Assembly (NCBI GenBank): GCA_000697665.1
Contig: KL197721.1
Coordinates: forward strand, 1-64,000
DNA length: 64,000 nt
Direction: 5' to 3'
From: Jaapia argillacea MUCL 33604
Taxonomy: Eukaryota > Basidiomycota > Agaricomycetes > Jaapiales > Jaapiaceae
Both the position numbers and the translations under genes were made by a program. Shown piece after piece: positions 11,247 to 60,966 of this stretch (its first letter is position 1; each line of letters opens with the position of its first letter). The notes beneath the pieces were generated by a model, which worked only from the letters and a program-made list of their open reading frames with translations, ran no database searches and had not been told where the DNA came from.

Positions 11247-14200
11247 TCAACAAACTCGTTTTTCCGGATTTCGAACCACCACAGCATCTTTAGCAAGCTC
11301 GAGATCCGCGAGGTCTCCCGTGTGCTCGAACCGGGTTGTCAACACAGTTGCGTACTGTTCAGCGATACGAGGTCGAGCAGGGTGATTGTCGGGGATAAGC
11401 TGGACGGCTTCACGAAGACAACGGATGGCCAAGTCAAGGTCTTCCACGTTTCTTGTCTCCTTGTATCGGGTAAACACTGCCATTCCAACGTCGGCCAGCC
11501 TCTCCGGTCTTGCAGGGTGCCCGGGAGGCGTGAAAGATGCTGCTTCAACAAAACTATTGATTGCAAAGTCAAGGTCTGCTGGGGAACGCAGACGGATGAA
11601 ACGATGAAGGACTGCCACCCCCAACCTATGGACGACGGCAGATCGGTAGGGGTGACCAACTGGTGTAAAGGACACAGCTTTGCTGAGCAACTCAACCGCA
11701 GACTCTAAATCCCTGATGTCCCCCAGTATGTTATAGCGGTTGTCGAGCGCAACTCCGAGATTACTGAGTAAGCGGTTTCGATCTGGATGATCATCCGAAG
11801 TCTGCGATGCACTGTTACGAAGCTCCGTGATTGCGGACGTCAGGTCTGATAGGTCTCCCACTTGTTTGAATCATGCGATGAGAGCCTTGCCAAGGTTTTT
11901 CAAAACAGTGGGGTTGGGATTCGTCGATAGTTGAGCGGCTGTCGAAAGCGCTGAGATTGCAGAGTCGATGTCTGCCATATTTCCGAAGCGCCCGAAACGA
12001 GAGGAGAGGAACATCCCAAGGTTGTTCAGAGTTGCGCGCCTGTCCGGATCATTAACTGGCAACAGTTGATCAGCTCTTTGGATTCTTGAGACTGACAAAT
12101 CAAGGTCATCCAGGTTCTCCGAAACCCAGAACCGGCTGTGCAGCAGGCGACCGATGTTGTTTAGCACGTGTGGCTTTTCTGGGTGGGTATCTGCGAGGGA
12201 GCTGGCAAATAGCTCCAGTACTGAGATAGCGTCGTCCAAGTCGTCGGTATCTCCCTGCAGGTCGAAACGCATCTCGAGTGTCAACGAAAGGTCCGCCACC
12301 AAACCGAAGAGATGTGAATCATCCTCCCGAGAGACTCGAATGGCCTCTCTGAACTTGGAGATCGCAGAATCAAGATCTGCACCATTGCCGCGTCGATTAT
12401 ATCGTGACCTTAATGATACAGCACAAAGGCGGAGAAGATGGGGGAGGTCAGGATAGTGTGCGGGGACCGAGAATTTGGAATCCTCGTGATTTTGGATTGC
12501 AGAGTCGATGTCGCCGATGTCGCCCCTGGCTTCGAATCGTGAGGATAAGGAGGTGGCGAGCTCGATGACGTCGCTGGATCTTTCATGTTCATCGTCTGGG
12601 ATGATTGAGAGGCACTCTTCTAACGACCTGATACCGTCGTCGAGATCCACTATTTCTCCTGATTCATCGTAACGTTTGATCAAAGCTGCGCCAAGATGAT
12701 GAAGAAGTTTACGCTTGTCAACACCGTCGGTGGAGGCGATGGAATTGGCTCGTTCAAGGATTGAGATGGCATCGGCGAGATCTGGAGCACGCCCACGACG
12801 GCTATATCGGTGGAAGAGGGCCCTTCCCAGCGCACCGAGGACAGGAAACGCGTCCGGATTTCCTTGTGGGAACGTGCCTGCGACATCCCGTAAAAGAACA
12901 ATGGCAGTATCCAGAGTACTGAGGTCACCCTCCGCTCCGTCGAGCTCAAATCGGTTCAGATTAAACATGGCCAATGCCATGCGTTCATCGTGTTCGGTAG
13001 CTCCTCCACAATCGGCATCAGGATCTCTTTTGAACCTCTCTTGTTCAGTACGAAGGCCAGAGCTGGCGTAATAGATGTGAGAAAGGCCGAGAAGGCATTG
13101 AAACGACGTACGAGGAAAATTCTAGAAAGGAAGGGATGTCCATGCCACTCGAGTCGACGTCATCGGTTGAAGGGGGGTTCAAATATGTGAGAAAGTTCGA
13201 TATTGTGGGCCTGCGCACAGCATCTGAATCCCAGCAAGTGTTCATGATGCGCCAATAGGTCTCAGAAAATTCGAGTTGCAGGGGCTTGGTGGGTCGCGCT
13301 GCGTGCAAAATTTCGCCCATGACGGCGATGTCGTGGTGAAGCTCGAAAAAGGGCAGCTTTCCGGTGAATATCTAGACCACGTTCATGAGTTCATGGAGAC
13401 TCAACAGATGATCAACACCAACCTCATACATAACCATCCCAAGGGCGTAAATGTCACTTTTGAAAGATGGCCTCGACGAATCCCTATCCTGCTCGGATTG
13501 GAAAAGCTCAGGAGCCATCCATCGTATTGTTCCTCCACTACGGGACGTCGCAGTTTGTAAAGTTGGGGATGTGTAAGCGAGAGTCGCCAGTCCGAAATCA
13601 GCGAGTCGGGCTGAACGGTCTTTGCCCACAAGAATGTTTGACTTATCGGAGAGGTAAACTCGAATTCCGAGACGAAAGATGGAGTCCGCATCCTCGACTC
13701 ACCCCTTTCAGATCTCCGTGAACAAGCCGTTTAGTATGCAAGTACTCAATTCCGGTTGCGATTTCTTTGAGCTAGAGAAATAATGATGTCTACCGAATTA
13801 TTCAGAGGGATAGATACTTACTAGTTTGGGCTTATCGGCAGAAGGATTCTCTTCGAGGTATTCAACAACACTCCCATGGAACATCCAGGGGCTGATCATA
13901 CATAGAGGGAACAAGGTTGTAGAGATCCCTAGGAATGGTAGGACGTTGTCGTGCTTCAACCGCTTCCAGATTATGGCTTCGGAGCAAAAGTCCTGTTGCA
14001 GCGTAAAATAAGTGTAATGAACACGGAACGGGGAAAATGCGAGCGCAACTCGTTTTAATTGATACAATGGCTTCCCGTAGAAAATTCGAAACACTTTGAA
14101 TGCAACTTCGGTAGAGCCATAACGGCCTCGATATACATCGGCGAAATATCCATTGGAGCGTGGCCACTCCTCTATCTTCTCGAGGGATGCCTTTTCGATG

Positions 14201-14403
14201 GTGAAGTAACTGGGCAGTATTCCTAGGCGTCCACAAAGAGTCTTGAGGTAGTGCAGAGAGCGCTGATCTGAGTCAAAAACATGTTCTTCGTCAAACCTGT
14301 CAGTCGCCTGGGATATGTGGGTCAGCGAAACGGTCATCTCGAGCGGAGACAGGGAAGCAAACACCTCGTTCAGAAGATCAACTACTAGTCTGGCAGTACA
14401 CAA
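11247..14403 (-). CDS. Protein kinase (TKL-like) fused to TPR array; one in-frame TGA
   Basis: The kinase domain runs from about 14220 to 13050. It shows NGYFADVYRGRYGSTEVAFKVF (degenerate Gly loop and the VAxK-type Lys), DFCSEAIIWKRLKHDNVLPFLG, HGDLKG joined by an intron to SNILVG (catalytic loop HGDLKGSN), LADFGLA, and GGTIRWMAPELF. An intron of about 48 bases near 13075-13120 joins it in frame to a long array (12980-11247) of about eleven units of 45-50 residues. Each resembles GDLxDLxxAI...LxxLGxALxxRF, a tetratricopeptide pattern. Such kinase-TPR proteins are common in basidiomycetes and probably use the repeats for partner binding. A TGA at 11871-11873 sits exactly where each repeat has Arg (LGKALIA-stop-FKQVGDL), and the frame then runs on to 11247. 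Upstream exons may reach about 15400, so the true start is uncertain. No CHAT or NACHT domain is seen. Confidence 0.8.
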
Positions 14404-15776
14404 CTCTGGATCTTTACTCAGCTCAGAGAAGATGGAGTCAGATGTAAGAAGAATTTCATAATGCTAAGAAGCTCGATATCGCAGAGATAAGTAGCATGAT
14501 TCCGCAGAAGCTCAAAGCGTTTCTTGTCCTTCGGGAGCGACAATGCGACAAGGACTGATCAACAACGCCCCACTTCAAGCGGCGTGGAGCAAGACCAGAC
14601 TCACCAGGACGCGAACAGATTGAGGGGGCGGAGTATACAAGGTCCATCGATGTAGTGGCGATATTGCGCCAATTCAAAAGAAGCACAAGAACACACGAAC
14701 TCTTCTCATATGCCGACCATTTCTCAAGAGTGTTCAGCACTGAAAGATGCCACCTTGGGAGGTTCAGCTTCACGTGGTGGGGGTTGGATCGCAGGACACA
14801 CGGCGTACCTGATAGCATCATGGATTTTCCAGTCAGACCGAGGCGTAGATCGAAGATCCGTCTTCCAGCATCCCGACTCTACGTAAGGCAATGATAGGGT
14901 AAGGAGTTCCCCCGCCAGGCTCTGAAGAGTGGAGTCAACAAACTGGTTTCATTATGGCAAAGCGCGATCTGACAGACCTTGTGGAGTTGCAGCTTGTCGG
15001 AGAGCTCCTTCATCCTCTGGAAAACAGTTGACAACCACACATCGGCCGGCGTCGATTCGAATGGAATGTCCATCGCATGTTGGGGTGTCAGTGGTGGCAG
15101 CCAGATCTGCAGAGATAATAAGCCCGAGAGGATCAGTCGTGGCAAACGAAGTGGACTGAGTGTTTGGGTTAGTAACGTAAATTACAGCGGTATGGGTACA
15201 TGGGGATTGGCACCCAACGACCCTGAACCTAGCGCCTATGAATAAGCGCACAGGAACACACCTCCGGACGAGACTCTAAATGGTCAGCCAGTTCTTCTGT
15301 GAGAACTTCAAGAGTGTTGAATGGTCGATCCTTGATCGCGCTAGCAACTACACCACCATACCGGGGGGATGTTTTCCAGAGGTCGATTCAGAGGCACGAC
15401 AACGGTCTTGCACTCGAGGTCAGCTTGTCACTGATTGAGGTCGTTTTGACGTCCCTAGCGCAAATCAATTGAGCATCGGCTGATCTCAAATGTCCGTGCG
15501 ACGTTTGACACTCAGACCCCAATGAGACATTTCTTGCTACCTCTGGTAGACAGTTAATTCAACCTTGGCGAAACAACACATAGTGGTAACACAGAGCTTT
15601 ACGAATATACAGTATTTTATTCAATTATCATTCCACTGCTCATACATATCTCGAGTTGGTCCGGACAGAGATGGAGAAACAGTCATGACATTGTAATGGT
15701 ATACGGACATTGGGCCTTAATGGTGTGGTATCTCAATAACCCAGCTCCGAGCAAGCCCTCAACCTGGAGAATGGAG
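14404..15776 (-). other. Probable 5' exons of the kinase-TPR gene plus flank
   Basis: Minus-strand stretches here look coding but cannot be joined with confidence. Examples are ESTPADVWLSTVFQRMKEL at about 15000-15060 and KDRPFNTLEVLTEELADHLE near 15260-15330, the latter followed by GTGTGT as a possible donor. They lie in the right place and strand to encode an N-terminal region of the kinase-TPR protein. The sequence from about 15400 to 15776 shows nothing I recognise and runs into the assembly gap. Confidence 0.35.
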
Positions 15777-28789: not shown

Positions 28790-31700
28790 ATGACCTCTGA
28801 TCTTACTTCAACTCAGTCGCCTCCACTATCTCACTGGCTTATACCATCACAGAATATCGACATCTATCGAGACCAACCCCTGGAACTTGCACATTCATCG
28901 GAGACGGGCAACAATTTCAAGGGTGTATTCCGCGGTAGATTGGTCGCCGTCAAAATCCTACCGAGTAACACGCCAGTGGCTGTGGGTTTAAATATGTCTC
29001 CCACCATCACATTATCTTGACATGCCTTCAGAATATCTTCAAGCGTGAACTCTGGAAATTTGTCTTACACCCAAATATCCTCCAAGTTTTTGGCGTCTCT
29101 ACCTTGAATACGGACCCACCCTTTATTATCACTCAGTTATGCCCCAAAGGCAACGTAAACGAATTTCTCGCAGGGAATCCCGTCGCTGATAGGGCTTTAC
29201 TCGTAAGTGTTCAGATTTCTTCGCGCGCGAACGTCTCGTCATTGTCATCTGATCCCCTTCCAGACTTACCAATGCATCCTCGGGATGAAGTACCTTCACG
29301 ACGTGCGCACCTTCGCGTCTCACTCCATATACTTCTAACCTCACCTATTCAGCTCGGAATCGTTCACGGCCACCTCAACCCGAGCAATGTTCTGATTACG
29401 GAGGATGGAGAAGCCTGCGTCGCTGATGCCGGTTTTATACAGATGATGCCCAGCAGAAACCCCAAGATGCATATGTATCTCAGTCCCGAAGCTTGGAAAG
29501 GGGTGTGTCCGTCAGAATTGTCTGTGATGTTCGTTAAATTCACATTTGAGCAAGATCGTCTACCTCCCGTCGGACGTATTCGCATTTGCTATGACGGCGT
29601 TTGAGGTATTGAATTCGCCGCATATATGCAGACGTCTTGACCCACATTCGCTCAGATATTCACGTCGACGCCACCTTGGGGTGTACTCTCAGAGACTCAA
29701 ACCTACCAGATGGTTGTCAGGGAAGGGGATCGCCCGGACAGACCAGAAGCTGACCTTGCGCATGGCCTCACCGACATCAAGTGGGAGGCAATGGAAGCGG
29801 CTTGGCAGAAGGAATCTAGCCTTCGGCCTACATTCGACGAGATTGCGAACATGTGGAAGCGGCCAGAAGGTGAGAGTCGGGGCGACATAACGAGTCTTAA
29901 CCCCCGCTCCCTTGCTGATAACCTCGCCGGCAAGTCCCTTCGGAACTTGATTCGCCCCCTTGTTCACCTCAACCCATCTAGACGCAAGTCTTCATCGATT
30001 GTCAATTGCCACTTTCCCCAATCTTTGGGAGAACCTTGAGCAGGACTTTGACTCGATGTCAACGATGACTGAGCGTCCTGCGGATCACTCCCCCTCGATC
30101 GAAACCACCGCTCTTCCTGCGCATACTGGGCCACTTGCTGTCCCCGTCGATGATGTGATGTTTAAGGCTCTTGTCACGAGCACGTCAACTTCCGTCGAAG
30201 ATTCATCACCAGGCTCGTCAGCACGTAGTACACGTCCACAGACTATATCGGAACTCGTTCAACGGGCCTTGGAAGAACCCTTTGATTCTTTCAAAGAGTT
30301 AAATGACTACCTCCGGGCGGCTGAGAAAGCTAGAGATGCAGGGAGAGATGCTATAATAGCGTGTGATTTGGAGAATGCTTTCGTGCAATTTGCGAAAGCT
30401 GCTACCATCGTTTTGGAGTGGTTACCTGCACATCGGGATTACACGACTCTGTTGACGCCATCGCAAAAGCATAATCTCGGATTGGTACGTACTCCCTACC
30501 CATTTACTGTGGGTTGGTCTGTCGGCGCTGGTGAGATTCGATTGGTTGCATGGGATGGAGAGGCGGGTTGGCGTTAGTTAAGTTGGGACGGAAGGTGGTT
30601 GCATTGGCTCTGGTTCGATATCTTCGGGGATCAGTGGGGGATGACACAGATATGATCTGGTTTCCTACTTTACCTCTGATTTATGTCGTGAAGATCTGTT
30701 TGAGGCGTGCTGGAGGTGTTATCATCGGCGATCTGAAGGACGTCGCAGAACCCACGGCCTTTCATGGTATGCGCACGAGCGCCTCCGTAGCTAAACTTAG
30801 GCCAGGGACTTAACCCCCCCCGTCGAATGACTTTCACTTTCATCTTCCCTTCCTTACCCTCAATCATTTCTAACCTCCCACACTTCTCTTACAGAATGGC
30901 CAAGAGATCCTCAAGAAAATAAATAGTCTCAAACCGATTCTTGTCGAACGCCACGAACTATGGGTCGTATCCAACCCGTTCTCTTCCACCTCTTCCTTTC
31001 TCAAACCTCCTTACCAACCTCCATCACAAACACCTCAACAACAACCCCAAACAAACCTCTCCCCAGTACTCTCCACCAAAATCCGCGAATCTCCTGCTTC
31101 TCTAACCGTATGCGAAGCAGACGCTCGTAGAAATACCGATTCCCAAGCCCGTAGAGAGACAGAAGACAGAGCATGGAGGAGAGAAGATGAAGAAGCCGTT
31201 CGTTGTCGACAAGCTGAAGAGATCAACACTCGCAGGTTGATAGAAGCTGCAGAAAGAGTGGAGGACGCTTTTGCCGCCTTTGGTGTTCATCCCAGGGCGC
31301 ATGGAAAGTTATCTGGGGGTGATTTGTTGGCTGGTAGGTTTGACGGGATGAGCGTTGGTGATGATCATGGGATGGGGGTTCAGTGGAGTCTGAGAGATGA
31401 GGTTTCGAGAGAGGACATGCCGGGCAGTTCGAGGGATGACGATGGGAGGGGAAGTGAACGGCAAGATGATGTGACAAGGAGGATGCAGGAGGGGAGGATG
31501 CAGGAAGCTGATGCGATTTTGATGAGACTACAAGAAGTTGATGCGACTGCTGGGGTCAGTGGACTGGAACGCGCCGTTGTCCAATGTCACCACCGAAGGG
31601 TCTATTCTGACCCTTCCTCCTCCAACTCCCCCCCTCTCCAATCCACGTATCAATTTCCGCCACAGCAGCCCCAACCAAATCGCTCCGCTATATCCCCCAC

Positions 31701-33907
31701 AGACTTCCGCGAACCTTCTGTTTCTCGGACCCATAGTGAGGCAGAAGGCCTAGCATCGGGGCGAGAAAGCGCAGAAGCTTCTCTTGTCCATTATCGTACC
31801 GGCAAGTTATCTTTTTGGTCCTCGATTAGCTTTCTTGTTCACCTCAACCACTCTAGACCGGGATCCGCTGCTATCATCACCCATGAATTTTCCCAACTCG
31901 ACGGAGCATCTCGAGCAGACCTTCGACTCGATGTCAATCATGACTGAACTTCCTGCATATGGCTCTCCCTCGATCGAAACGAGCTCTCTTCCAGAGTATA
32001 CCCCATTTGTTGTCCCCGTCGAAGATTCAGCATCAGGCTCCTTGGCACATACTGTCAGTCCGCCACCAAGTTATGTCAGTCCAGCTATCCGAAGGATACA
32101 CTCACAATCTCCGTCCACTTCGATTGGTTATCACATCAATTCCATATCAAGCGCCAATCCCACCTCCCTTTCCCATAGCCATGGCCCTTCTTCAGACTCT
32201 GGTAAGTTCTCCAATCTGCTTCTGATTCATTCCATTCACCACCATCTTAGAATTCGTTTTCGTTTCAACTCCCCGACGAAGCGATGTTCAACGATCTCTA
32301 GGACACAGGCGGGTTCAATCGAGTCCACAACTCGAGCCTCGCCGCCGATATGCAGGGCTTTACGAGTACACGGAATCAGGATACCCCGACTATGAATCTT
32401 CCATACGTGGCTTGTCGGAGGGGCGCTCCTCAGAAGGGTGGTTAGCTCAGATGGATCGGAACAATCAACGAGAAACGCAACGTTCAGCTGAAGTGAATCA
32501 ACCGAGCTCAGGGACCCAACCCGAAACAGCCAATGCGCTCCGTATGTGACCACCTCCCGATAACTCTACCTCACATCTATATCTTCATTCCAGAAGTGCA
32601 ACGAAATGCTGTACAACTTGCCGCTACTCTCCATGCGAAGATCCTTACGGGCAGCACGCGCCCGGTGATAGACCAGTGTTTTCAGAACATTCAAACACTC
32701 GCGTTTCAGTCCGAGAAGGCTGCGAAACACCTCGTCATGGCCGGAGTTGTTCCCGACATTGTGAAGCTGCTGGGCCAACGACGCGAACTTGAAGATGTTT
32801 ATGGCCTGGAACTAATTCTCGTAGCGCTAGGTGCATTAGCGTATGTTACATCTTCTTTCTTACCACCATCGGGTTGCTGATGACCGCAACATCACTAGAT
32901 GGGACGCTGACACTGCGACCATGATCCACGAGCAAGAGATATCTCCAACGTTAATCCAGATCATAATGGATTCATGTTCGGACAATATTTCGTCCTTGGC
33001 AATTTGGTGCATGAATCGAATGTGCTGGAGCTCAGAGTTAGCTTCCAAGTTGATCGAGGACGACTTCCCCAGCCTGCTAGTCCAGCAATATGCGGAAATT
33101 GGTCAACTAAAGTCACGCTTCTCCGCCTGGTTTTTGGGTTCCCTTGCCTATACCAAGGCTCAGGCTGATATCCTTGCCGAACATTCCATCCCATGGTCTG
33201 CTCATTACCTTCTGGCTTGCGTCAGCGCCCCAAGGTCCCAGTCACACGACACGTGTGCGTCCCTCTTCCTCGTCGCTCGCATGGCTCGATCGACATCCTT
33301 GTCCCAATCACTGGTGCAAGCTGGTTGCGTCCCAGGGATCGTATACTACCTGTCGACATCATATTGCCCAAAGGTTCTCTATTGGAGTGCTGTTGCTGTG
33401 GGATGCCTACTGCATTTGGATGAACAAGACAGTGACAAATCCATCTCTGATGCATTGCTAGAGGCAGGTGTTGCACAGGCGCTAGCGCGGTTGCCTGATG
33501 TTCTCTCTGCGAATCAAGTGGAAGCTCTCACCGCCTTTGCCATTGCAGTACAGCGAGTTGCATGGGCTGGGTCCAGAAGTGACAGTTGCAAGGCTTTGGT
33601 TGATGCAGGAGTAGTCGACCCGCTTCTGGCCGCTCTAAGAACAGCGGTTAGAATACAAAATCCAGAAGTACAGTATGAGTTGGTTATGGCAGTGGCCATA
33701 CTTGGTGATTTCGGTGGGTGGGGTGTTCGGAAACAGTTGCGGGTCGGCGGTGCGTTGGACGTCCTCGATCAAATTAGGCCAGTGGGGCATCCCCATCTAC
33801 GGCAGGCCCGCAATAAAGCTATGGGCGCTGTTAGCTGGATCCCGTGGAAGATAAATCATGGTACGTATCATCCTTCTCCTCTACTTATGGGAGCACGACG
33901 ATTGTGA
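28790..33907 (+). CDS. Chimeric protein: TKL-like pseudokinase - AMSH N-half copy - ARM repeats
   Basis: Start at 28790 (MTSDLTSTQSPPLSHW). The kinase part spans about 28790-29870 over several short introns. It has RLVAVKIL (Lys kept), ELWKFVLHPNILQVFG, HGHLNPSNVLI where kinases have HRDLKxxN, VADAGFIQ where they have DFG, MYLSPEAWKG, SDVFAFAMTAFE and WQKESSLRPTFDEI. The catalytic Asp is replaced by His, so it is probably inactive. A linker exon (29982-) leads to a copy of the first half of the AMSH gene (about 30215-31570): the dimerisation domain ([38 protein letters not shown]), a 410-base intron (30485-30894) and the charged coiled coil. The JAMM protease half is absent. After a second linker copy the frame reaches ARM/HEAT-like helices (about 32600-33860, e.g. 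AAKHLVMAGVVPDIVKLLG, SCKALVDAGVVDPLLAALR). All junctions can be spliced in frame. An alternative last intron would end it at 34008. Confidence 0.75.
29925..30145 (+). repeat. Linker copy A in the chimeric gene
   Basis: Contains a short intron (29930-29981, GCAAGT...CTAG, so GC-AG) and an exon encoding LEQDFDSMSTMTERPADHSP and the following Ser/Pro-rich residues. It is matched by 31796-32035, including the intron with the same GCAAGT start, CTTGTTCACCTCAACC and the CTAG end. Copy A joins the pseudokinase to the AMSH-derived segment. Confidence 0.85.
30215..31570 (+). repeat. Segmental copy of AMSH 5' half
   Basis: Aligns by eye with 35330-36700 of the neighbouring AMSH gene over both exons and the intron between them (410 bases here, 400 there). 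The intron keeps long matching stretches, such as GTCGTGAAGATCTG and ATCTGAAGGACGTCGCAGAA, so this was a DNA-level copy rather than a reverse-transcribed one. The copy keeps open reading frames and stops well before the protease-coding exons. Confidence 0.92.
31605..31795 (+). repeat. Second partial AMSH segment (Pro/Gln-rich part)
   Basis: This stretch repeats the region of AMSH at about 36075-36240 that encodes [19 protein letters not shown]. Here it reads SAISPTDFREPSVSRTHSE. It is therefore a third copy of that short part within 6 kb, placed directly after the larger AMSH-derived segment and before linker copy B. Confidence 0.75.
31796..32035 (+). repeat. Linker copy B in the chimeric gene
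   Basis: Second copy of the intron-exon unit at 29925-30145: GCAAGT donor, CTCTAG acceptor, then an exon with LEQTFDSMSIMTELPAYGSP. It joins the AMSH-derived segment to the ARM-repeat half in the same phase as copy A. Confidence 0.85.
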
Positions 33908-34008
33908 CTGAATTGTGGGAAGATACTGCTAGGAACATCTTCTACCCTTGGATGATGAGTCCTTACTGCTGTCCAGACTACCGACCATCATGCCTTCGGA
34001 GTCTGTGA

Positions 34009-35166: not shown

Positions 35167-38100
35167 ATGAGTCACAGAACATCATATTCTTCCTCCCCGT
35201 CCTCCACCCTTATCCACAACCCTTCCGCCCTTTCCCCCTCATCGACACTAGTAAATTCTGGTCCTACTCGCCCCCTCCTCCCCAGCCTTGATTCCACATC
35301 TTCTCGCCCTGGCGGCGGCGGCAACACAGGCAACACACGCCCAGCGACTATCGCAGAGCTCGCCCAACGTGCCTTGGAGGAATCCTTCGATTCGTCTAAA
35401 GAGCTAAAGTATTACCTACGGGCGGCTCAGAAAGCTAGAGATGCGGGGAGAGATGCTATAAGAGCGGGTGATTTGGAGAATGCTTTCGTGGAGTTTGCGA
35501 AAGCTGCTACCATTGTCTTGGAGAGGTTACCTGCACATCGGGATTACACGAGTCTGTTGACGCCTTCGCAGAGGCATAATCTTGGATTGGTACGTACTTC
35601 CTACCTATTTGCTGTGGGTCGGTCGGTGTTGGCGAGATTTGATTAGTTGTATGGATGGAGAGGCGGGTTGGGTATTGGTTGGGTGAAGACGAGAGGTGGT
35701 TGCCTCGAGTCTCGTTCGATATCGTCGGGGATCAGCGGGGGGTGATCCAGATTTGTTCTAATTTTTTACTGTTTCCCTCTGAGTTATGTCGTGAAGATCT
35801 GCAGGAGACGTGCTGGAGATGTTATCATCGACGATCTGAAGGACGTCGCAGAACTGATGGCCTTCCATAGTATTAGCGGACGAGCGCCTCCATAACTAGG
35901 TCAGGGACCTAACCTCCCGCCTCGAATGACTCATCCTTTCTTCTTCCTTTCCTTTCCCTCATTTCTAACCTCCCAAATTTATTTTGCAGAACGGCCAAGA
36001 CATCCTCGACAACTTAAGTAGACTCAAACCTACTCTTGTTGAACGCCACGAACGATGGGTCGCATCCAACCCTTCCTCTTCCGCCTCTTCCTCTCTCAAA
36101 CCCCCCTACCAAACTCCATCACAAGCACCTCAACAACAACCCCAACCAAACCTCTCCCCAATATCTCCCACCAAACTTCGCGAATCTTCCGCTTCTCAAG
36201 TCGTACGCGAAGCAGAAGCTCGCAGAGACGCCGATTCCCAAGCCCGTAGAGATGCCGAAGACAGAGCGCGGAGGAGAGAAGGTGAAGAAGCAGTTCGTCG
36301 TCGACAAGCTGAAGAGATCAATGCTAGGAGGTTGGCAGAAGCTACTGAAAGAGAGAGGGGCGCTACAGCTGCCGCTTCCGCTGCTCTTGGTTTTAATCCC
36401 GGTTCGTATGGAAAGTCGTCTGGGGGTGATTTGTTGGCTGGTAGGTTTGATGGGATGAGAATTGGTGACGGACAGGGGATTGCGACGCAGAGGAGTCCGA
36501 GGGATGAGTTGGGAAGGGGTTCGTCCAGAGAGGATATGCAGAGGAGTTCGAGAGAGGATGTGAGTAGGAGTTTGAGGGATGATGATGGGAGGGGAAGTGG
36601 ACAACAAGATGATCTGAGGAGGAGGATGGAGGAGAGGAGGAGACAGGAAGCTGAAGGAATTTTGAAGAGACAACAAGAAGCTGATGCAGCCGCTCGGGCT
36701 GTCGCGTCTGGTGCACCACCTACTACCTCCGCCAATGCGAGTATCCGGCCTGAAGCGCAAGGACCGAAACCTCTCGGGTTGAGCGCTTCTTATCCAAGTT
36801 TACCGCCTCCGGTTAGCTCGTCTCAGCAATCAGCGATGCATTACCAGGAGCAGGAGGGGATCGCGCGGAGGCAGAGGGAAGCGGATCTTGCTGCCCGCTC
36901 GAGTCGACTCCAAGGACAGGGTTATGGTTCGAATCCGGTATCAATTCCGCAACAGCCTCACCATTCAAGCTCTGCTCCGAATTTCTCGAGTTCGAGACAA
37001 TCTGCTTCGGGTTATGACCAAGAAGAGAGAGCGAGGAAACAGAGAGCTGCCGAAGCTGCTGCTCGTGCTGCTCTTGATCCTAACACCACTCTTCGTGGCA
37101 AAGTATCGACTGCCTCTGCTTCTTCCTCTGCTTCGTCAAATTGGACTGCTCCAAACAATCCTCCGCTTACCGCCAACAACTCAAGCTCCTCTGTGATGCC
37201 GGCGCCGACTGCCGTCAGTTCTGCTCAATACGCGTTTTTGGAGTCGCATCATAAGAGTGGTATCCCGATTATGCCGTTGGAGAGTCCGACGAAGTATGAT
37301 GATGATAGTTCGACTGATGCTTCTGTAGCCGACGAGCCGTCGTCATCTCCTTCGGTTTTGTTGGGTGCGAGAGGTGGACATCATTCCAGACAGGCTGCTG
37401 ATTCCACGCCTACTAGGATGCCAAGGCGAACGTACGTCCCGACAAGTTCTCGTTCCTCTACCCTCTTCGATCTGTGACTGTATGCTGAATCCTTTGTTTT
37501 TTATGTTTTCTGTTTGCGTAGGGCATCGTATCCGCCACCGATAACAACAACATCTCCTCCACCTGCCGAAGTGGGTCTTATTCGGTACCCGTCCTTAATG
37601 ACCACCCACCAACTGTCTCAGGGGTACACACCCTCTCTACAGTCGATGTTCTTACAATCTATGGGCCCTATAAACCACACCACCACACCACTCTTGTTTC
37701 AACCTCACCCGCCAACTAGTGGGTTGTATTCGGGGATCCTTCCTCAGCAGTCATCTTCGGCGTTTGAGATGCCTGTCGCTCAGCACCATCCGCCTCATCC
37801 ACACTACCAACAACAGCCACAACAATCGATTCAATACCCCACGTATAACTCCCGTACACCCGTTTCGAATTCTCGTCCTCCTCCTCAATCCCAGCCCCCA
37901 CCTACCACCCAACCACCCGAACCCGAACCACAAGCTCCCCGTATCACTCGTGCTGATTCCAAAGTCGATAATAACCCACGCGAATTGAAAACTGTTAACC
38001 TCCCTCGAGAATGTTTACCTCGATTCCTTTCCATTGCTGCTGGCAACACGGCTAGGAATCGGGAGACGTGTGGGTTGTTGCTTGGGAAGGACAAAGGACA

Positions 38101-38742
38101 CAAGTTCGTGGTTACGACGTTGTTGATACCGAAACAACATTCGACGAGTGATACGTGTACTATGGATGAGGAGGAACTTGTTATGCAGTTTACGGAGGAG
38201 AGGAATTTGATTACTTTGGGTTGGGTGAGTATATGCGGTCCTTTTGGGTCTTGGGATGGTTGATAACTGATGCATCTTGTAGATCCATACGCATCCTACT
38301 CAGTCATGTGAGTGTTTTGTGTGTGATGGACGCTATAGACGAGTGTCCTGAGTGTTTCCTAGGTTTCATGTCCTCGGTGGACCTGCATACCCATGTTGCG
38401 TTCCAGAGAATGCTCCCCGAATCTTTCGCAGTCGTCTGTGCTCCCACTTCCACGCCAAAGTAAGCACACTCTGCCGTCTCTTGCCGTTATCGTCCACCTG
38501 GAACTAACCGTGATGAAGCTTTGGTATCTTCCGACTGACCGACCCTCCTGGTCTTCAAACCATCTTGAGTTGTAACGCTAAGGAAGCCTTCCATCCCCAT
38601 CCTGACCTACCCATATATACCGTGAGTCCTCCTTCTCCCTTCAACCGCCGTCGCAGATGAGTTGATGCTCGTTGGTCAGGACGCCGACAAGGGTCATGTA
38701 CAGATGAAGGACACCTCATTAGAGATCGTGGATTTACGTTGA
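35167..38742 (+). CDS. AMSH/STAMBP-like JAMM deubiquitinase
   Basis: Zn-dependent protease that cuts Lys63-linked ubiquitin chains on endosomal cargo with the ESCRT machinery (fission yeast counterpart Sst2). The start at 35167 gives [14 protein letters not shown]. Exon 1 (to 35589) holds the dimerisation/MIT-like domain ([38 protein letters not shown]). A 400-base intron (35590-35989) follows. Exon 2 encodes a long Pro/Gln-rich and then Arg/Glu/Ala coiled-coil region, with Ser-rich linkers to about 37433. Exon 3 from 37522 leads into the JAMM domain: [10 protein letters not shown] (catalytic Glu), then IHTHPTQS and [11 protein letters not shown] across an intron at 38308-38362. This completes [14 protein letters not shown], the HxHx7SxxD signature. 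The AMSH-type second zinc site is also present ([13 protein letters not shown]). It ends SLEIVDLR at 38742. The gene is complete, and its 5' half was copied into the upstream chimeric gene. Confidence 0.95.
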
Positions 38743-51000: not shown

Positions 51001-51408
51001 GGGAGACACAGGTTTGATTGGGGCGGATAACGCAGGATTGTGGGCTGTTGGTAGAGTCTGACTCGTGGACTGAGACGCTGGTGGTCACAGTAATGCAGCA
51101 CAGTGATGTCACCTTGCCAGGACGCCTGTGTGATTAAGGTCATTATTAGGGGGATTGCATTTACAAAACTCTCGGAAGAATAGATACGGGGTGGCCGTTG
51201 CTCAAAAGTACGATGCGAAGTTACATGCAACCATGACACAATCGATATCGATATATCGAAGAGTCACAGAGTAGGAAGACAGATACACAGCTGGTGTTGT
51301 ACGGGGGAGACGTAAAGAGTTGCCTTCAGGTTGCAGGTAAGTATCAGGGTTCTAATAAGAATACGGTCGCAAACCTTGCAGATTTAAGATGACCGCCTGC
51401 ACAACCCA
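51001..51408. other. Spacer between BTB-A and BTB-B, left unit
   Basis: Upstream flank of left BTB-A. It matches 55020-55454 in parts (TTTACAAAACTCTCGGAAG and GAAGTTACATGCAACCATGA are shared), but the first about 90 bases next to the BTB-A start differ between units. No gene seen. Confidence 0.5.
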
Positions 51409-52262
51409 TCAAGATGTTCCAAGGAGTTCATTCCACGGTGGCAGGTCGAAGAAAGATGGCAACTTGGACCACGCCACCTGCTTCCTTGCTTCAAAAGCCT
51501 CCCTTCCAAAGTTGAGACAAGATGCGCAAAGTCCAACTTCCCACACCACAGACCACGAAGCCAAGCTGTAGAGATACGGGGTAGGGTTCCAGAGCCTTGC
51601 AAATAACCGCAACTTCTTCATTTCACAATCTTTCCTCGTCACTCCGCAATTGCTGGGTTTGTGAAGCCAACCAAACGAAGTCTCTGCTTGAAATTGAAAG
51701 AGCTTCTCTCCCCCTTGCATACATCGCCGCTGATCCTCCGGAGATAGGATCGCAGTCGAGCCGTCTGATCTGATCATCCCTTTCAGCAGATAACTCGAAA
51801 AATCGTCGACGAGGCAAAAGCAGTAAAAGGCAACCGGAAGTATGGAGAGCACTTTGGTCTCCCATGCCAACGCGATTACATCGAGTAGGGCGTCTTGACC
51901 TTCCTCTATAGCAACCCAACCATCTTCGGCATTTTTATACGCTTCGAGAGAGTGAGAAAATTCCGACTGTAGGCGGGCCGTGGCATCCTTCACGAAATGT
52001 GTGATATTTTACTTCATGCCAAGTCGGAGGATGGCACCGATGACAGCAATGGGCTGGAAGCCTTGGTCCCGGAAGTATCCAAAGTTTCATAGAATCAGCG
52101 GGGAAAGTCATACATGGGCCATCCACTTACCTCCTATCGTGAAGGGCGCGCAGCATGTGGGAAACATCGGCCGCGGTGTCCGATAAGTCTGCGAATGGGC
52201 AACCGTCAATGGATTCTTCAGGTACCTCCGTAGACAGCGAGAACATATCCCGAAAGATCGGG
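51409..52262 (-). pseudogene. BTB-B, left copy (5'-truncated at duplication joint)
   Basis: Lacks the start and the first part of the BTB domain: the frame is cut at about 52262 within SPIFRDMFSLS and joined to PhzF tail sequence. Exon 1 remainder reads EESIDGCP and HMLRALHDRR. Exon 2 begins YFRDQGFQPIAV and has a TAA where the right copy has Tyr (GMKYNITHF). The rest runs open to LPSFFDLPPWNELLGTS at 51409. Clearly a dead copy of 55455-56451. Confidence 0.92.
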
Positions 52263-52264
52263 GA

Positions 52265-52371
52265 GGAAGGGTGAGATTAGTGTCAGTGTTGTTAAGGGGG
52301 AACAGGGACTGGAAGGGGTGAAGCTCAAAGGAAGTGCTGTGAAAGTTATGGAAGGAGTTTTGGAGATTTGA
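52265..52371 (+). pseudogene. PhzF 3'-end fragment
   Basis: Encodes the tail of the PhzF protein (KGEQGLEGVKLKGSAVKVME, stop at 52369-52371) as in 48352-48461, fused at its left edge to the truncated BTB-B copy. It carries the first bases of the right duplication unit and has no promoter or start of its own. Confidence 0.92.
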
Positions 52372-52646
52372 GGGACGGCTTGCTGGACAGAATATTGGAC
52401 TCCTGCTTTAGCTGCATTCGTTCCCGGATCGCTGTAACTGCTTCAATATGCCTCAATTGGCTACATTCTCTGGTGTTCTCACCTAGCTAGACTGACGAGC
52501 GATAACCTACCAGCATATGCACAAGGCATGGTCTTTTCCCATGAAAAGGGTGGACGCGACCAAGACGCGTGGTGTTCCCGTGATTTGTGTCGAACCCACA
52601 CTCGCGTTCTGCGAATACCGTGATTTTATTGCTCGAATCCTCGTTC

Positions 52647-53073
52647 ATGTCCAAGCGAGCGGTCTTATTTTTCCACCATATTATGAACAAGAACAAGAAG
52701 CGAGCACTTCATGACATGGCCATGAATTTCAAGTTATCTGGATGGTGCAAGTTCGGATTCCCTGGCGTTGTAGTCACGGTCGTTCAAGGGGAATCCCTTG
52801 GTATGCATGAGTATATCAGACGAATCAAGGTGAGTTAGATCGCCAGTCATTCAGTCCTAGAAAGTTACCCATTGAGTCGACTTCTGGGATTAGGCTATGA
52901 GATGGCAGCAGGTTCGCGTTGAGACGATTGACGACGTGGACGATGACAAGTCCTTTGGCAACCATCGATCTGGTCTGCAAGAGGTTGAAGCCATCTCAGA
53001 TATCACTCAAGCCCTTCGACCTCTAGGTCTTGAGCCTTGGTTCCGCAAGGCCATGGGTTATGCACCGAAGTGA
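52647..53073 (+). CDS. DUF1115 (RWDD2-like C-terminal domain) gene, right copy
   Basis: Duplicate of 48765-49180 with the same two-exon structure. It begins MSKRAVLFFHHIMNKNKKR, continues LSGWCKFGFPGVVVTVVQG (two residues longer than the left copy in this loop), is spliced after RRIK to AMRWQQVRVETIDDVDD, and ends RKAMGYAPK. Both copies keep an open frame and the second exon is almost unchanged, which suggests that the protein is under constraint even without an RWD domain. Confidence 0.7.
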
Positions 53074-53982
53074 CCTCACAACCATTTCTGTGGATCTCAT
53101 ACTCAACATATACCTCTGGTTGCAAAGTGTCGGTATCCATGTGCACTGTTCTAAAGAGCTCGCTAATACTCTAGTTTCAGCTCGCGCTCTATTATGTGGA
53201 CGACCGTGCGCTCAGGACGGCAAATGGCATCAGAACCTGAATCCTGGCGTGGATCTTGAATCGTTCCCGATTCCTGTCCCACACTCAGGAATTGACGGCT
53301 GTTTGAGTTGATCCGCCCTCGTTTATTCACTCCTGAAATTTGTCAGTTTCCTCGACCTCACAGCCGCACCGCTGCATGATTACGGCGAAGCCGGCAGAAA
53401 CCTCCTTTTCCTTGGATGGTTGCCGCCAATGCGACTCTGCGAGATGGCACCATACACTTGTGCCTTTTGCGGGGGCGATGGTTGTGATGATGTGATGGTG
53501 GCCATCGCGGTCGTTCCTCGGGGAGAAATGGTTGGGGAATGGAAACGATGAGTATTGGTATTGACCTGATGGGATACTTAGGGGATGTCGAGGCGACGGC
53601 GGCAAGCTACGAGGGGATGGGAGAGGAATTTTAGTGCGAAGTATATCAAAAGAAGCTTGTGTTTTTTCACTGCCTCCCTGTACTTGGATCCATTCATGCA
53701 TCGTTCGGGGCAGAATCAAGATTTGGGGGATGGGGAGCCCACCCACAGCCAGTGTCATTACTATGTGCGTATCTCATCATGTAAAAGTCTTGGTATACGA
53801 GGAATGACCCCGTCAGCTGAAGAGCGAAAACCATAACTCCACATGAGCAACGGCTGGGAAACTGTGTGCCGACTCGGAGTTAACTATGTTCGGGGAGTTA
53901 ATGCCAATGGGGTTCATTATGCATGATGAACTGACATACCGACGAAGGTTTGATCTCGAAATAAACGCGCCTCCAATCCCTC
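53074..53982. other. Intergenic part of right duplication unit
   Basis: Counterpart of 49181-49963. No gene is visible. The run GATGGTTGTGATGATGTGATGG near 53476 has a counterpart near 49540. Open frames here are not shared with the left unit. Confidence 0.5.
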
Positions 53983-55019
53983 TCACGCGGACGATGCCGC
54001 AATCAGCTCGTTCCAAGGCGGAAGATCGAACAAGGATGGAAGTTTGTCCCATATTATCTGGCGAGCCGCCTCAAACCTCTGCTTTCCACCAGCAATACAA
54101 GCGGGACACAGATCATCGTTCCATTCTTCATTCCAATCTTCGAGTGCCCAGCTTTGGGGCAAAGGATTCCAAAGATTGATAAACAAGGCCCTCCTCGCCT
54201 GAGTGCAATCGTCAGCGCTGCCACAGGGAGTAAGGTCATGTAGCCATGCAAACGAAGCGGCAGCTTGCTCCCATAAGACCTTTTCTTTACCGCCAAGATA
54301 ACGTCGCTGGTTGTCAGAGGACAGCGTGGCGATCGTTCCATCGTTCCGTTGTTCGCCTTCCAGGCCCCATATTAAATCGTTGTTGAGGCATGTATAAAAA
54401 GCGATGGGAAGGATGGATAATACTCCAGTCTCTGAAGCGAGGGATATTGCATCGATGGTGACCGCTGGTTCTTCGCAGATTGCCACGTAGCCGTCAATGG
54501 CGAGGAGTTCTTCAAGAGAGGATGGCCATTCTTTTTGAAGGAGCGCTATGGAATCGTCTCGCAAGTGATCAATGCCGTACTTCTTGCCCAGGCGCAGCAA
54601 AGCACTGACAACTGCGATCGGTTGAAGAACATCGGAGCGGAAATATCTAAGTCGTCGTACAACAGGTATAAGGCTGGATGAAATCCAGCGACGTGGAAAC
54701 AATTAGTGATCACTCACCGCCTGTTATGGAGAGCTCGTAGCATGTGTTCCACCTCTTCAGCAGTGTCCGATAAATGCACTACTGGACAACCGTCGATGGT
54801 CTCTGAGGCAGAAGGGGTGGAAAGCGAGAACATGTCGCGAAATATTGGGGAGTTCTCATACAAGATACCTTTGAAAATCTTGAACTGCGTTGAACCGGCC
54901 ACCAGGATGACATTGCCGTCGTCGTACCAAACATCGGATCTACGCAGTGACTGGGCGGTGTCGTCGGCGGTCGTATTGATTCGAGGACGTTTTGGAACCC
55001 TGTCAAGGTCGGATGACAT
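53983..55019 (-). CDS. BTB/POZ-domain protein BTB-A, right copy (intact)
   Basis: Two exons split by a 71-base intron (54647-54717). The start at 55019 gives MSSDLDRVPKRPRIN. Exon 1 holds the BTB/POZ fold (SDVWYDDGNVILVAGSTQFKI, ENSPIFRDMFSLSTPSASE, GCPVVHLSDTAEEVEHMLRA). Exon 2 is a helical region starting YFRSDVLQPIAVVSALLRLGK, with CTQARRALF and CPACIAGGKQRFEAA, ending LPSLFDLPPWNELIAASSA. BTB domains dimerise and often bind cullin 3; in basidiomycetes this BTB plus LPSFFDLPPW-type tail is a large family without known function. About 290 residues. Confidence 0.92.
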
Positions 55020-55454
55020 GGCACCTGGGTTGTACCCTGTCGGAGGCGGCAGGGTGCGACTGAGGTGCCTGGTTACACTGTACTTACAGTATGTAATATT
55101 GCAACGCTGTGATGCCACCTTGGGCCTTGGGTCAACACCTGGCGTGTGATTGGGGTCATTATTGTATTAGCTCCACGTCATAACATAGTAGAGGGATTAC
55201 ATTTACAAAACTCTCGGAAGCATGTATATAGGGCGGCCGTTGCTCAAAAGTACGTTGCGAAGTTACATGCAACCATGACACGATCGTATATCGACAGCTT
55301 GACGAAGAGTCCCAGAATAGGACGACAGATCCACGGTTGGTGTTGTATGGAGATGTCAAGAGTTGCCTTCAGGTTGCAGGTAAGTATCAGGGTTCTAATA
55401 AGAATACGGTCGCAAACCTTGGAGATTTAAAGAGACGGCCGCCCGCACAACCAA
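55020..55454. other. Spacer between BTB-A and BTB-B, right unit
   Basis: Counterpart of 51001-51408 and promoter-side flank of the intact BTB-A gene. No gene seen. The first 90 bases differ from the left unit, so the two BTB-A genes may have different promoters. Confidence 0.5.
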
Positions 55455-56451
55455 TCAAGATGTTCCGATGAGCTCATTCCACGGCGGCAGGTCAAAGAAA
55501 GATGGCAGTTTGGACCACGCCCCCTGCTTCCCTGCTTCAAAGGCCTCCCTCCCGAAGTCAATACAAGATGCGCAAAGTCCAACTTCCCACTCCGCGGACC
55601 ACGCATCCAGGATGCAGAGCTCCGGACTAGGGCTCCAGAGGCTTGCAAATAATCGCAACTTCTTCATTTCACAATCCCTCCTCGTCACTCCACAATTGCT
55701 TGATGTGTGAAGCCATCCAAACGAAGTCTCTGCTTGAAGTTGGATGAGCTTTTCTTTCCCAAATATACATCGTCGCTGATCCTCCGAAGATAGGATCGCA
55801 GTCGAATGGTCTGATCTGATCTTCCCTTTTAGAAGATAAGTTGAAAAATCATCGCCGAGGCAAAAGCAGTAAAATGCAACCGGAAGAGTGGAGAGCATCT
55901 TGGTCTCCCATGCCAACGCGATTACATCAAGTAGGTTGCCTGGAGCTTCCTCTATAGCAACCCAACCATCAGGCAACTTTTCATACTCTCCGAGAGAGTG
56001 GGGAAATTCGGACTGCAGGCGAGCTGTGGCATCCTCCACGAAATGTGTGATATTGTACTTCATGCCAAGGCGGAGGATGGCACCAATGACAACAATGGGC
56101 TGGAAGCCTTGGTCCCGGAAGTATCTAAAGTTTCGTAGAATCAGCAGGGAAAGTCATACATGGGCCATCCACTTACCTCCTATCGTGAAGGGCGCGCAGC
56201 ATGTGCGAAACATCGGCCGTGGTGTCGGATAAGTGCACGACTGGGCAGCCGTCAATGGATTCTTCAGGTACCTCCGTGGACAACGAGAACATATCTTGAA
56301 AGATCGGGGAGGAGGCAGACAAGATGCCCCGGAAAACTTTGAACTGTGTCGATTCGGCGATCAGGATGACATTGCCATCGTCGAACCAGACGTCGGCACT
56401 GCGAATGAGCGGTTGAACATCATCGGTACATGCGCGCTTTGTCGCAGGCAT
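55455..56451 (-). CDS. BTB/POZ-domain protein BTB-B, right copy (intact)
   Basis: The start at 56451 gives MPATKRACTDDVQPLIRSA. Exon 1 carries the BTB fold (DVWFDDGNVILIAESTQFKVF, ASSPIFQDMFSLSTEVPEE, GCPVVHLSDTTADVSHMLRA). After a short intron exon 2 reads YFRDQGFQPIVVIGAILRLG, then FGWLHTSSNCGVTRRDCEMK and CASCIDFGREAFEAG, and ends LPSFFDLPPWNELIGTS. It is the complete parent form of the truncated copy at 51409-52262. Function unknown beyond the likely adaptor role of BTB proteins. Confidence 0.92.
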
Positions 56452-57057
56452 GTTAATGTTGCCTTGAGGTCAGATGTGTTTGGCCGTAAATCCTCGAGTG
56501 GTTGGCAACACGTACGACTGGCGCAGACAAAAACATGACTAGTGCAATGTTACTATAAGAACGTGACCACATACACGTGATATGTGACCGTATTAATCCA
56601 CTGAAAATTGTACAACGCGATAGACGAGCACAGTGGACGAAGCAAAAGATTATGACAGAATATCGCAAGGTGAGTTACCCAACGCCGAAAACCCGCAGAA
56701 AAGTAAAACAAAAGGCCTCTCCTGTATTCGCAATCCTACTCCGCCCAAAACAGAAACTTGTTCGGAACCACATTGGTGAGTATAGCTCAATAATCGACTG
56801 GGTAATGTCGAGCGAAGCTTTCGTATGTAGACGTCTGGCGAATCAAGTGTGCCGGGGAAGGATGGGAGAGACCCGGAAAATGGGACGGTAAAATTGATCG
56901 CGTTCTTCTTGGCGGACCGAGGAAGTGCGATTGGGATCGAGGAAAGTAGAATAAATTATAACATTAGTGAGATATGGCAGACAACGAGTTGAAGTGTGCG
57001 CGAATGGATGACGAGAATGGGATATGGCCATCGGTTCAAGCTGAAGCTGGTAATTCA
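56452..57057. other. Intergenic with a doubtful ORF
   Basis: About 600 bases. A plus-strand frame of 104 codons (56577-56891) is Lys/Arg-rich and has no recognisable motif. Otherwise only flanking sequence of the two BTB genes. Confidence 0.4.
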
Positions 57058-58121
57058 TTAGCCTTTGAAAGAGAAGGTAGTAAATCGACGAAACAACGAC
57101 GCACCAGCTAGTAACATTTCCCAAGGTGGTAGATCAAAGAACGAGGGTAGAAGCTCCCAAGTTTTGGATTGACTTGAAGTGAAGGCATCCTTTGCCGCTT
57201 GACGGCAAGCAGGGCAAAGGCCGGCTGCCCAACGATCATTCCATAACGAAAGGGCAAGAACACGTGGTATAGGGTTCCAAAGCCTGGCGAAATTGACGAG
57301 TTTGGCCATATAGCAGGTCCTGACCCCGCCATCGCACTGGGTATGCAACCACGAAAAGGCGTGTTCGGCCTGGTGATTCAGCAACCTCTCTCTTCCGCGG
57401 ATGCAGTTTCTCATGTCATCGACGGGAATTGTGATAAAACGGGTGTCGGACCCTTGAGGCCGCCCCCAACCTAGTTCAGGAAGATCTTTGGATCGGGCGA
57501 GGCAGAGATAGGCGTATGGGAGAAGGGAAAGGACGTTGAGATCTCGCACCAACGTTATTATTTGTAGGACAGGGAATTTGATGGGTACTTTGCTGGTTGA
57601 AACTGACTGAAGTCCTTCCAATGTGTGGGGGTGGTTTGCTGGATGCGAGCTATGGCATCTTCGAATAAGTGGTTGATTTTGTATTTGTGACCCATCCGTG
57701 CAACCGCACATATGGTAGCAGGAGCTACCGGTTGATCCCCGCAGAAGTACTTGACGAAGGTGTAAAATAAGCACAATACAAATAAGACAAAGGAATCAAA
57801 TTCATACTGATGATTGTAGACAGCTTTTAACATGTGCTCGACCTGACTAGGAGTGTCAAATAAACGAACTACGGGACATCCTTCAACTTTGCCCTCCTCT
57901 GATGTGGGGTCAGATAAGGTGAACATGTCTCGAAATATCTCCGAGTTTTCTGAGAGAACACTGCGATGGACTTTGAAGAGCGTCGTCTCCACAAGCAGAA
58001 CAATGTTCCCATCCAAATACCAAACTTCCGAGCGAGTTGGAGGTTTTTCTGGAAGGCTTTCTGCAGTTTTCGAGTCTGCTCTCAGTTGTTTAGGGGGTCG
58101 TTCAGCCTGTTCCGTTGCCAT
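57058..58121 (-). CDS. BTB/POZ-domain protein BTB-C
   Basis: The start at 58121 gives MATEQAERPPKQLRADSKT. The BTB fold follows (SEVWYLDGNIVLLVETTLFKV, LSENSEIFRDMFTLS, GCPVVRLFDTPSQVEHMLKA). After an intron comes YFCGDQPVAPATICAVARMG, and after another LVRDLNVLSLLPYAYLCLA. The tail has CPACRQAAKDAFTSS and LPSFFDLPPWEMLLAG, ending TTFSFKG. Same architecture as BTB-A/B/D but clearly diverged, closest to BTB-D. The start codon lies only 11 bases from the tRNA-like element on the other strand. Confidence 0.9.
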
Positions 58122-58132
58122 TATGACTATGG

Positions 58133-58219
58133 GTGGGCCGCAATGGCCTAGCGGTACCATTGAGGCTGAGTGCTTGACCTTTGTCCTGCACTCACGGGTT
58201 CGAATCCCGTCAGGCCCAC
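58133..58219 (+). tRNA. tRNA-like cloverleaf, isotype not assignable
   Basis: Four perfect arms: acceptor GTGGGCC (58133-58139) with GGCCCAC (58213-58219); CAATGG/CCATTG (58141-58162); TGAGTGC/GCACTCA with a 14-base loop (58167-58194); and ACGGG-TTCGAAT-CCCGT T arm. TGGCCTAGCGG and GGTTCGAATCC fit the A and B boxes of tRNA promoters. However, the D-arm spacing and the long third loop do not fit a standard tRNA. It may be an unusual intron-bearing tRNA, a tRNA pseudogene or another pol III RNA. Confidence 0.5.
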
Positions 58220-58221
58220 CA

Positions 58222-60799: not shown

Positions 60800-60966
60800 G
60801 TCTCAGACACCAGATGCTGGATGGGTGAGGTGATGAAGGTTATCAGTTCTTGATGCGCCATCCGCACCGTTTTTTACTGCTCGGACCAAGTTTGGAAATT
60901 CCCGACTTCATTCTTTTCCACAAAGTTTTGCAATCCTTCGAGACTAAGCTCCCAAAGACTTCCATC

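Follow-up and report, generated by a model that had tools for sequence, protein, structure and literature searches.

A gene on the forward strand of contig KL197721.1 from Jaapia argillacea MUCL 33604 is read here as a kinase-ARM scaffold gene that, through DNA rearrangement, gained an in-frame MIT module from a neighbouring AMSH gene; its product would carry the MIT domain and would thereby be tethered to ESCRT-III, a reading to which we give a probability of about 55%. The gene occupies positions 28790-34008 of the window, that is, of the whole 64-kb stretch that was analysed (contig C13 of a 43.7-Mb assembly in 95 contigs). It can be written as 13 plus-strand exons in a single frame: a TKL-type kinase comes first, followed by a linker, the copied 5' half of AMSH, a second stretch of linker and finally an ARM-repeat region. 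As had been proposed from the letters of the DNA alone (termed here the sequence-only reading), the pseudokinase, linker, AMSH-like segment and ARM-repeat region are confirmed to join in one open frame, with no stop over the 1377 codons of the spliced model. A probable last exon (33923-34008, plus strand), which is phase-compatible and is the least certain exon of the model, extends the chimera to 1405 codons, with the stop at 34006-34008. Splice phases are compatible throughout, and the frame breaks at splice junctions that the sequence-only reading had named beforehand as telling against it are absent from the modelled junctions.

Components of the chimeric gene

The kinase part consists of six plus-strand exons (28790-28981, 29032-29202, 29264-29302, 29353-29502, 29555-29605 and 29656-29929), whose open spliced frame matches the Pfam model PK_Tyr_Ser-Thr (1.3e-26 on the spliced chimera model). 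In the catalytic loop, normally HRDxxxxN, the chimera has HGHLNPSN and a paralogue on contig C16 has HGTLNPNN, both as read from the models. The HRD aspartate is replaced by histidine in the chimera, which upholds the earlier pseudokinase call; the lysine of VAVK is retained in the model. A kinase fold lacking the catalytic aspartate is a feature of the MIT-pseudokinase layout discussed below, and the chimera kinase looks catalytically dead. Among four other kinase relatives whose loops were checked (L016, L018, L019 and L020), the pattern was matched only in L018, a distant kinase (25%) with an intact HRD.

The ARM-repeat region (exons 32594-32840 and 32899-33860, plus strand) was recognized by structure: a fold model of a single exon (pLDDT 75.4) matches designed armadillo proteins in Foldseek (E = 1.5e-10), as expected of an ARM superhelix and of the 'ARM platform' named earlier; Pfam ARM models score below their cut-offs on the chimera. 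One further copy of this region was found in the genome, on contig C16 (47% identity, E = 1.9e-85), where it belongs to a paralogue modelled over 928 codons. This paralogue has the chimera's kinase, linker and ARM parts in unchanged order, together with matching intron phases and exon structure (the two are collinear) and the GC-donor intron described below, but it has a single linker and no AMSH sequence. The sequence-only reading had looked to other agaricomycetes for a kinase-ARM gene without the AMSH insert; such a gene exists in the same genome, which is where the comparison was made. Between the two genes, the ratio of replacement to silent change (w) stands at 0.16 in the kinase and 0.27 in the ARM part, with silent divergences (dS) of 1.3 and 1.6, which makes the pair both old and constrained; and because the paralogue has all parts except AMSH, the AMSH segment is an insertion into a gene that already existed.

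The inserted sequence (30230-31555) corresponds to 35335-36698 of the AMSH gene downstream, termed here the parent, with 79.6% identity over 1380 columns (E = 0.0), and it includes the intron of about 400 bases, as had been noticed before. Exon 7 of the chimera (29982-30484, plus strand) runs from the linker into the copy of AMSH exon 1, which begins at 30230, holds the core of the putative MIT/USP8_dimer domain, and is 86.3% identical to the parent without indels over 255 bases (84% at the protein level). The copied intron (30485-30894, plus strand) is 82.5% identical to parent intron 35590-35989, with 7 indels (of 4, 1, 1, 2, 2, 6 and 4 bases). Exon 8 (30895-31801, plus strand) comprises, by comparison with the parent, a copy of AMSH exon 2, termed copy A (to about 31554; 81.9% identity; its two indels, 12 and 36 bases long, keep the frame), followed by a second exon-2 piece, fragment B (31555 to about 31798; E = 3.9e-8, 51%). 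Fragment B has diverged further than copy A, with 68% identity to the parent and 64% to copy A; it is in frame, with internal gaps of 12 and 42 bases relative to the parent and, in the same alignment, edge gaps of 1 and 33. The copy begins at residue 57 of the parent (numbered from its ATG at 35167) and so lacks a native AMSH start codon. The intron itself differs less between copy and parent (17.5%) than do silent sites of the exons (24-33%). An RNA gene within it was considered and rejected, the one Rfam match scoring 16.4 bits against a gathering score of 38.

In content, the copied segment is read as the MIT domain (also named 'USP8 dimerisation') together with charged sequence of coiled-coil-like character, and its sequence match in the PDB is the MIT domain of human AMSH (2XZE, 9LE4; E = 2e-4). 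It carries no JAMM protease: homology to the parent stops at 36698, ahead of the JAMM part, and no Pfam match to the JAMM domain of AMSH/STAMBP occurs in the chimera, so that the earlier description of an AMSH-derived half without its protease stands. NCBIfam models gave no informative match.

The parent AMSH gene (35167-38420, plus strand, end approximate; exon 1 35167-35589, exon 2 from 35990) scores 27.5 bits against PF08969, over the cut-off. It does lie downstream of the chimera, at about 1.2 kb from the modelled stop to 35167 rather than the 1.3 kb first given. Near 38280-38420, JAMM-like residues (IHTHPTQS...) can be read by eye across two small introns, and a STAM-binding motif pattern has no match in the parent's exon 2. 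Searches with exon 2 and with PF08969 returned, as lower bounds, three exon-2 matches (parent, copy A and fragment B) and two PF08969 matches (parent and copy A) in the genome, all at this locus; by these searches a further AMSH copy elsewhere was not found.

Duplicated linker and origin of the insert

The AMSH insert is bordered on both sides by diverged copies of the gene's own linker, a feature absent from the sequence-only reading. The first copy (L1, 29927-30227, plus strand) aligns with the linker and GC donor of the C16 paralogue and holds an intron at 29930-29981; the second (L2, 31799-32051, plus strand) holds an intron at 31802-31856 and is followed, with overlap, by the remaining native linker (31857-32541, plus strand; exons 31857-32201 and 32251-32541), recognized by its open frame, phase and alignment to the paralogue. 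L1 matches L2 in two stretches: 31799-32026 at 70% identity over 231 columns, and 32016-32051 at 83% over 36. Three linker copies were found in the genome (L1, L2 and that of the paralogue), and in each an intron of 52 to 55 bases occurs at the same place, in phase 1, and with the identical donor GGCAAGT, the third instance being at position 6021 of L003 on the minus strand. GC-donor introns are reported to be a small minority of introns (PMC7072748); that a rare type is nonetheless identical in three diverged copies argues that the donor is really used, and the GGCAAGT intron is a candidate conserved GC-AG intron. For L1 a GT donor at 29870 offers an alternative that also keeps the frame. L1 and L2 have changed about equally fast, with 37 and 39 changes and 29 ambiguous, the intron included. 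Gaps among the three linkers up to the AMSH junction are multiples of three in one alignment and include a 2-base gap in a re-run on trimmed pieces; being alignment-dependent, they decide nothing.

The most likely origin is a tandem duplication plus a deletion. A tandem duplication would have extended from the linker into exon 2 of the neighbouring AMSH gene; a deletion would then have joined the first linker to AMSH exon 1, leaving the order L1-AMSH-L2-ARM-AMSH. These two steps together would explain why source and copy share a strand, why the source is the adjacent gene and why the linker is doubled; the presence of fragment B implies at least one further step. If one event duplicated both, the linker intron and the AMSH intron should have diverged alike, and identities of 40/52 between L1 and L2 and of 326/395 between the AMSH introns do not differ significantly (P = 0.34); synonymous sites, from rounded counts, lean toward an older linker duplication (P = 0.057). 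A processed duplicate (that is, a retrocopy) is rejected, because the retained AMSH intron argues against an RNA intermediate. Serial template switching was also considered, but tandem duplication plus deletion needs fewer assumptions; microhomology in the junction alignments showed nothing decisive. Tandem duplications across gene boundaries are described as a known source of chimeric genes in Drosophila yakuba (PMC5460883). The proposed origin is of the same kind; the difference is that here the captured exons are flanked by two copies of one intron.

Signs of selection on the AMSH copy

Relative to the parent, the first AMSH exon of the copy (85 codons) has about 15 replacement and about 20 silent changes (w = 0.187, bootstrap 0.08-0.38); w is 0.277 (0.14-0.49) for the MIT domain (114 codons) and 0.48 (0.35-0.68) for the two AMSH exons together. 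The exons have 2 indels per 918 aligned bases (12 and 36, both multiples of 3) as against 7 per 395 in the intron; at the intron rate 16.3 exon indels would be expected (Poisson P = 1.3e-5), and if half that rate is taken for the copy's own branch, about 7 frameshifts would be expected there, and none is seen (P = 0.0009). When the parent is evolved neutrally by simulation, the probability of no stop is 0.02-0.055 at a divergence (K) of 0.10, with about 3 stops expected, 0.006-0.012 at 0.15 (about 4 to 5 stops), and 0.001-0.006 at 0.20. A test on replacements rejects neutrality at 0.15 per branch (P = 0.008 for exon 1 and 0.046 for the MIT domain) and above; with the silent-site clock, 0.164, the corresponding values are 0.002 and 0.014. 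We read these results as a frame that has probably been kept by selection, with the first AMSH exon constrained and the part that follows relaxed; the signs in the sequence favour a coding copy that is being maintained. Gene conversion of recent date was tried as an explanation of the open frame and rejected, the longest identical run (32 bases) not being exceptional (permutation P = 0.43), which leaves room for an old conversion.

Several results weigh against a maintained, MIT-bearing product. Some of these would be accommodated by a rather improbable but substantial alternative, namely that the AMSH insertion is a non-functional, decaying passenger, tolerated as it can be spliced out by way of the duplicated intron, and that it arose so recently that a remnant open frame survives. 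Thus the exon-2 copy (220 codons) has a w of 0.65 (0.47-1.02), which fits relaxed evolution and has an upper bound of about 1; fragment B has drifted down to its present parent identity; skipping both AMSH exons yields an open product (below); and when the intron divergence (about 0.2, with 0.10 on the copy) serves as the clock, the replacement test gives P = 0.26 for exon 1 and 0.67 for the MIT domain, and neutrality is not rejected. The passenger explanation sits poorly, however, with the absence of stops and of frameshifts over the 918 aligned exon bases, against the 7 indels taken by the intron, with the constraint on exon 1, and with the similar rates of change in the two linker copies. 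Also on the unfavourable side, the absence of stops would be unremarkable at K = 0.05 (P = 0.15-0.21), and with fragment B as outgroup copy A has 11 changes to the parent's 7, with 5 ambiguous. The copy scores 21.6-23.1 bits against PF08969 (22.4 for exon 7, 21.6 on the spliced chimera model), under the Pfam cut-off of 24.6 (the parent, at 27.5-27.6, is over it). The fold model of the exon-1 copy is of low confidence (pLDDT 69.8), and its search of the PDB returned no match with E under 2, the matches to USP8 (2A9U, E = 2.6) and STAMBP (9LE4, E = 2.9) not being significant. Finally, the chimera needs two GC donors (29930 and 31802), of a minority intron type.

Splicing and possible role

The two AMSH-bearing exons measure 503 and 907 bases and, because they total 1410 bases, including both or excluding both keeps the frame. 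With both included, 1377 codons are open; with both skipped, 907 codons are open, in a form like that of the C16 paralogue. Skipping the first alone leads to a stop at codon 303 and skipping the second alone to a stop at codon 470; retention of an intron leads to stops at codon 329 for the first GC intron (intron 6), at 811 for the second (intron 8), and at 491 for the AMSH intron. Given the doubled linker and intron, the AMSH exons would be skippable, and the layout permits an all-or-none cassette. It is a tentative possibility that the ESCRT-binding module is such a cassette, so that one gene would yield either a free or an ESCRT-tethered pseudokinase-ARM scaffold, since the same phase-1 GC-AG intron is duplicated on both sides; the weak GC donors would then set the ratio of the two, and skipping both AMSH exons would give back the ancestral kinase-ARM protein, whose frame is seen in the model. 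In the same case, reading through the first GC intron is predicted to give a product with the kinase alone, and reading through the second one that has kinase and MIT but no ARM.

The same read-through stops, together with the possibly weak GC donors and the presence of right-frame ATG codons in both linker copies, would also suit three transcripts in place of one, from a truncated kinase gene, an AMSH-like gene begun inside the linker, and an ARM gene begun in L2. We consider this unlikely, as the copy lacks an AMSH start, the C16 paralogue has the matching exon structure as one modelled gene, and the splice phases fit from end to end.

If the chimera is instead translated as one protein, its MIT domain would bind ESCRT-III tails, and tethering would place a dead kinase and an ARM platform where AMSH acts, without ubiquitin cutting. 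The MIT domain of human AMSH is reported to bind all but two of the 12 ESCRT-III subunits, CHMP3 most tightly (PMC9477494), and five human AMSH residues are reported as CHMP3 contacts (PMC9313428). When these five are mapped by hand, parent and copy both retain E72, Y80 and K107 and both have Q in place of K88; at E104 the parent has S and the copy has N. Because three of five are kept, shared ESCRT-III binding by the copied MIT domain is plausible. The best-supported role, by analogy, is that the MIT module ties the pseudokinase-ARM scaffold to ESCRT-III and brings no protease, since the copied part corresponds to the AMSH MIT domain and human MIT-bearing pseudokinases bind ESCRT-III.

A competitor role, as raised by the sequence-only reading, is the most doubtful of those weighed here: the inclusion form would act mainly as a dominant competitor, occupying AMSH partners or AMSH itself and slowing deubiquitination. 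The retained MIT domain, the absent JAMM domain and the parent-like CHMP3-contact residues would suit such a competitor, as would PDB entry 9LE4, whose title, 'MIT-CD complex of STAMBP', suggests that an MIT domain may also be in contact with the catalytic domain of AMSH. Against it, the sequence following the MIT domain shows relaxed evolution, and the module is attached to a scaffold which the paralogue has without any AMSH part, so that recruitment of the scaffold is the simpler effect.

Two further features of the window were noted by eye from translations: several mutually similar minus-strand open reading frames (ORFs) at 51400-60800 are BTB/POZ-like, and TPR-like repeat ORFs at 11247-14463, also on the minus strand, adjoin another TKL-like kinase ORF. 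In the genome, 67 kinase stretches were matched, counted exon by exon and with the chimera gene itself included.

The locus would provide a worked case of a new multidomain protein arising without loss of the old one and, because the domain arrives with a duplicate of a host intron, of a captured domain that splicing can use or bypass. If expressed, the chimera would be a fungal counterpart to the human MIT-bearing pseudokinases and would make it simple to test whether capturing a domain gives a pseudokinase a role in ESCRT; the paralogue and the parent, both in this genome, act as internal controls. A literature search at the level of titles and abstract starts, narrow in scope, listed no AMSH-pseudokinase-ARM fusion among its matches, nor, among the same matches, an AMSH origin, ARM tail or duplicated-intron cassette for an MIT-pseudokinase. 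The earlier statement that no described protein has this domain set therefore holds, within that scope, for the full set but not for its core: MIT plus pseudokinase is an already known kind of layout.

Among known systems, AMSH/STAMBP is the source of the copied segment, from which the chimera differs in lacking the JAMM domain and the AMSH N-terminus and in being fused to a pseudokinase and ARM repeats. The agaricomycete FslK/TKL kinases, an expanded group of which just 16 of 241 members are reported to carry extra domains (PMC3937382), resemble it, as compared by motif, in being TKL-type kinases with W(X)6RPXF, preceded here by A and in the published motif by C; the chimera differs in lacking the catalytic aspartate and in its extra domains. 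Closest in layout are the human predicted pseudokinases RPS6KC1 and RPS6KL1 and the kinase ULK3, which carry an MIT domain and a kinase-like domain on one chain and all bind ESCRT-III proteins (PMC9477494); in the Jaapia gene, by comparison, the MIT domain is AMSH-derived, follows the kinase, was taken from a neighbouring gene and is succeeded by ARM repeats at the end, and ESCRT binding is putative.

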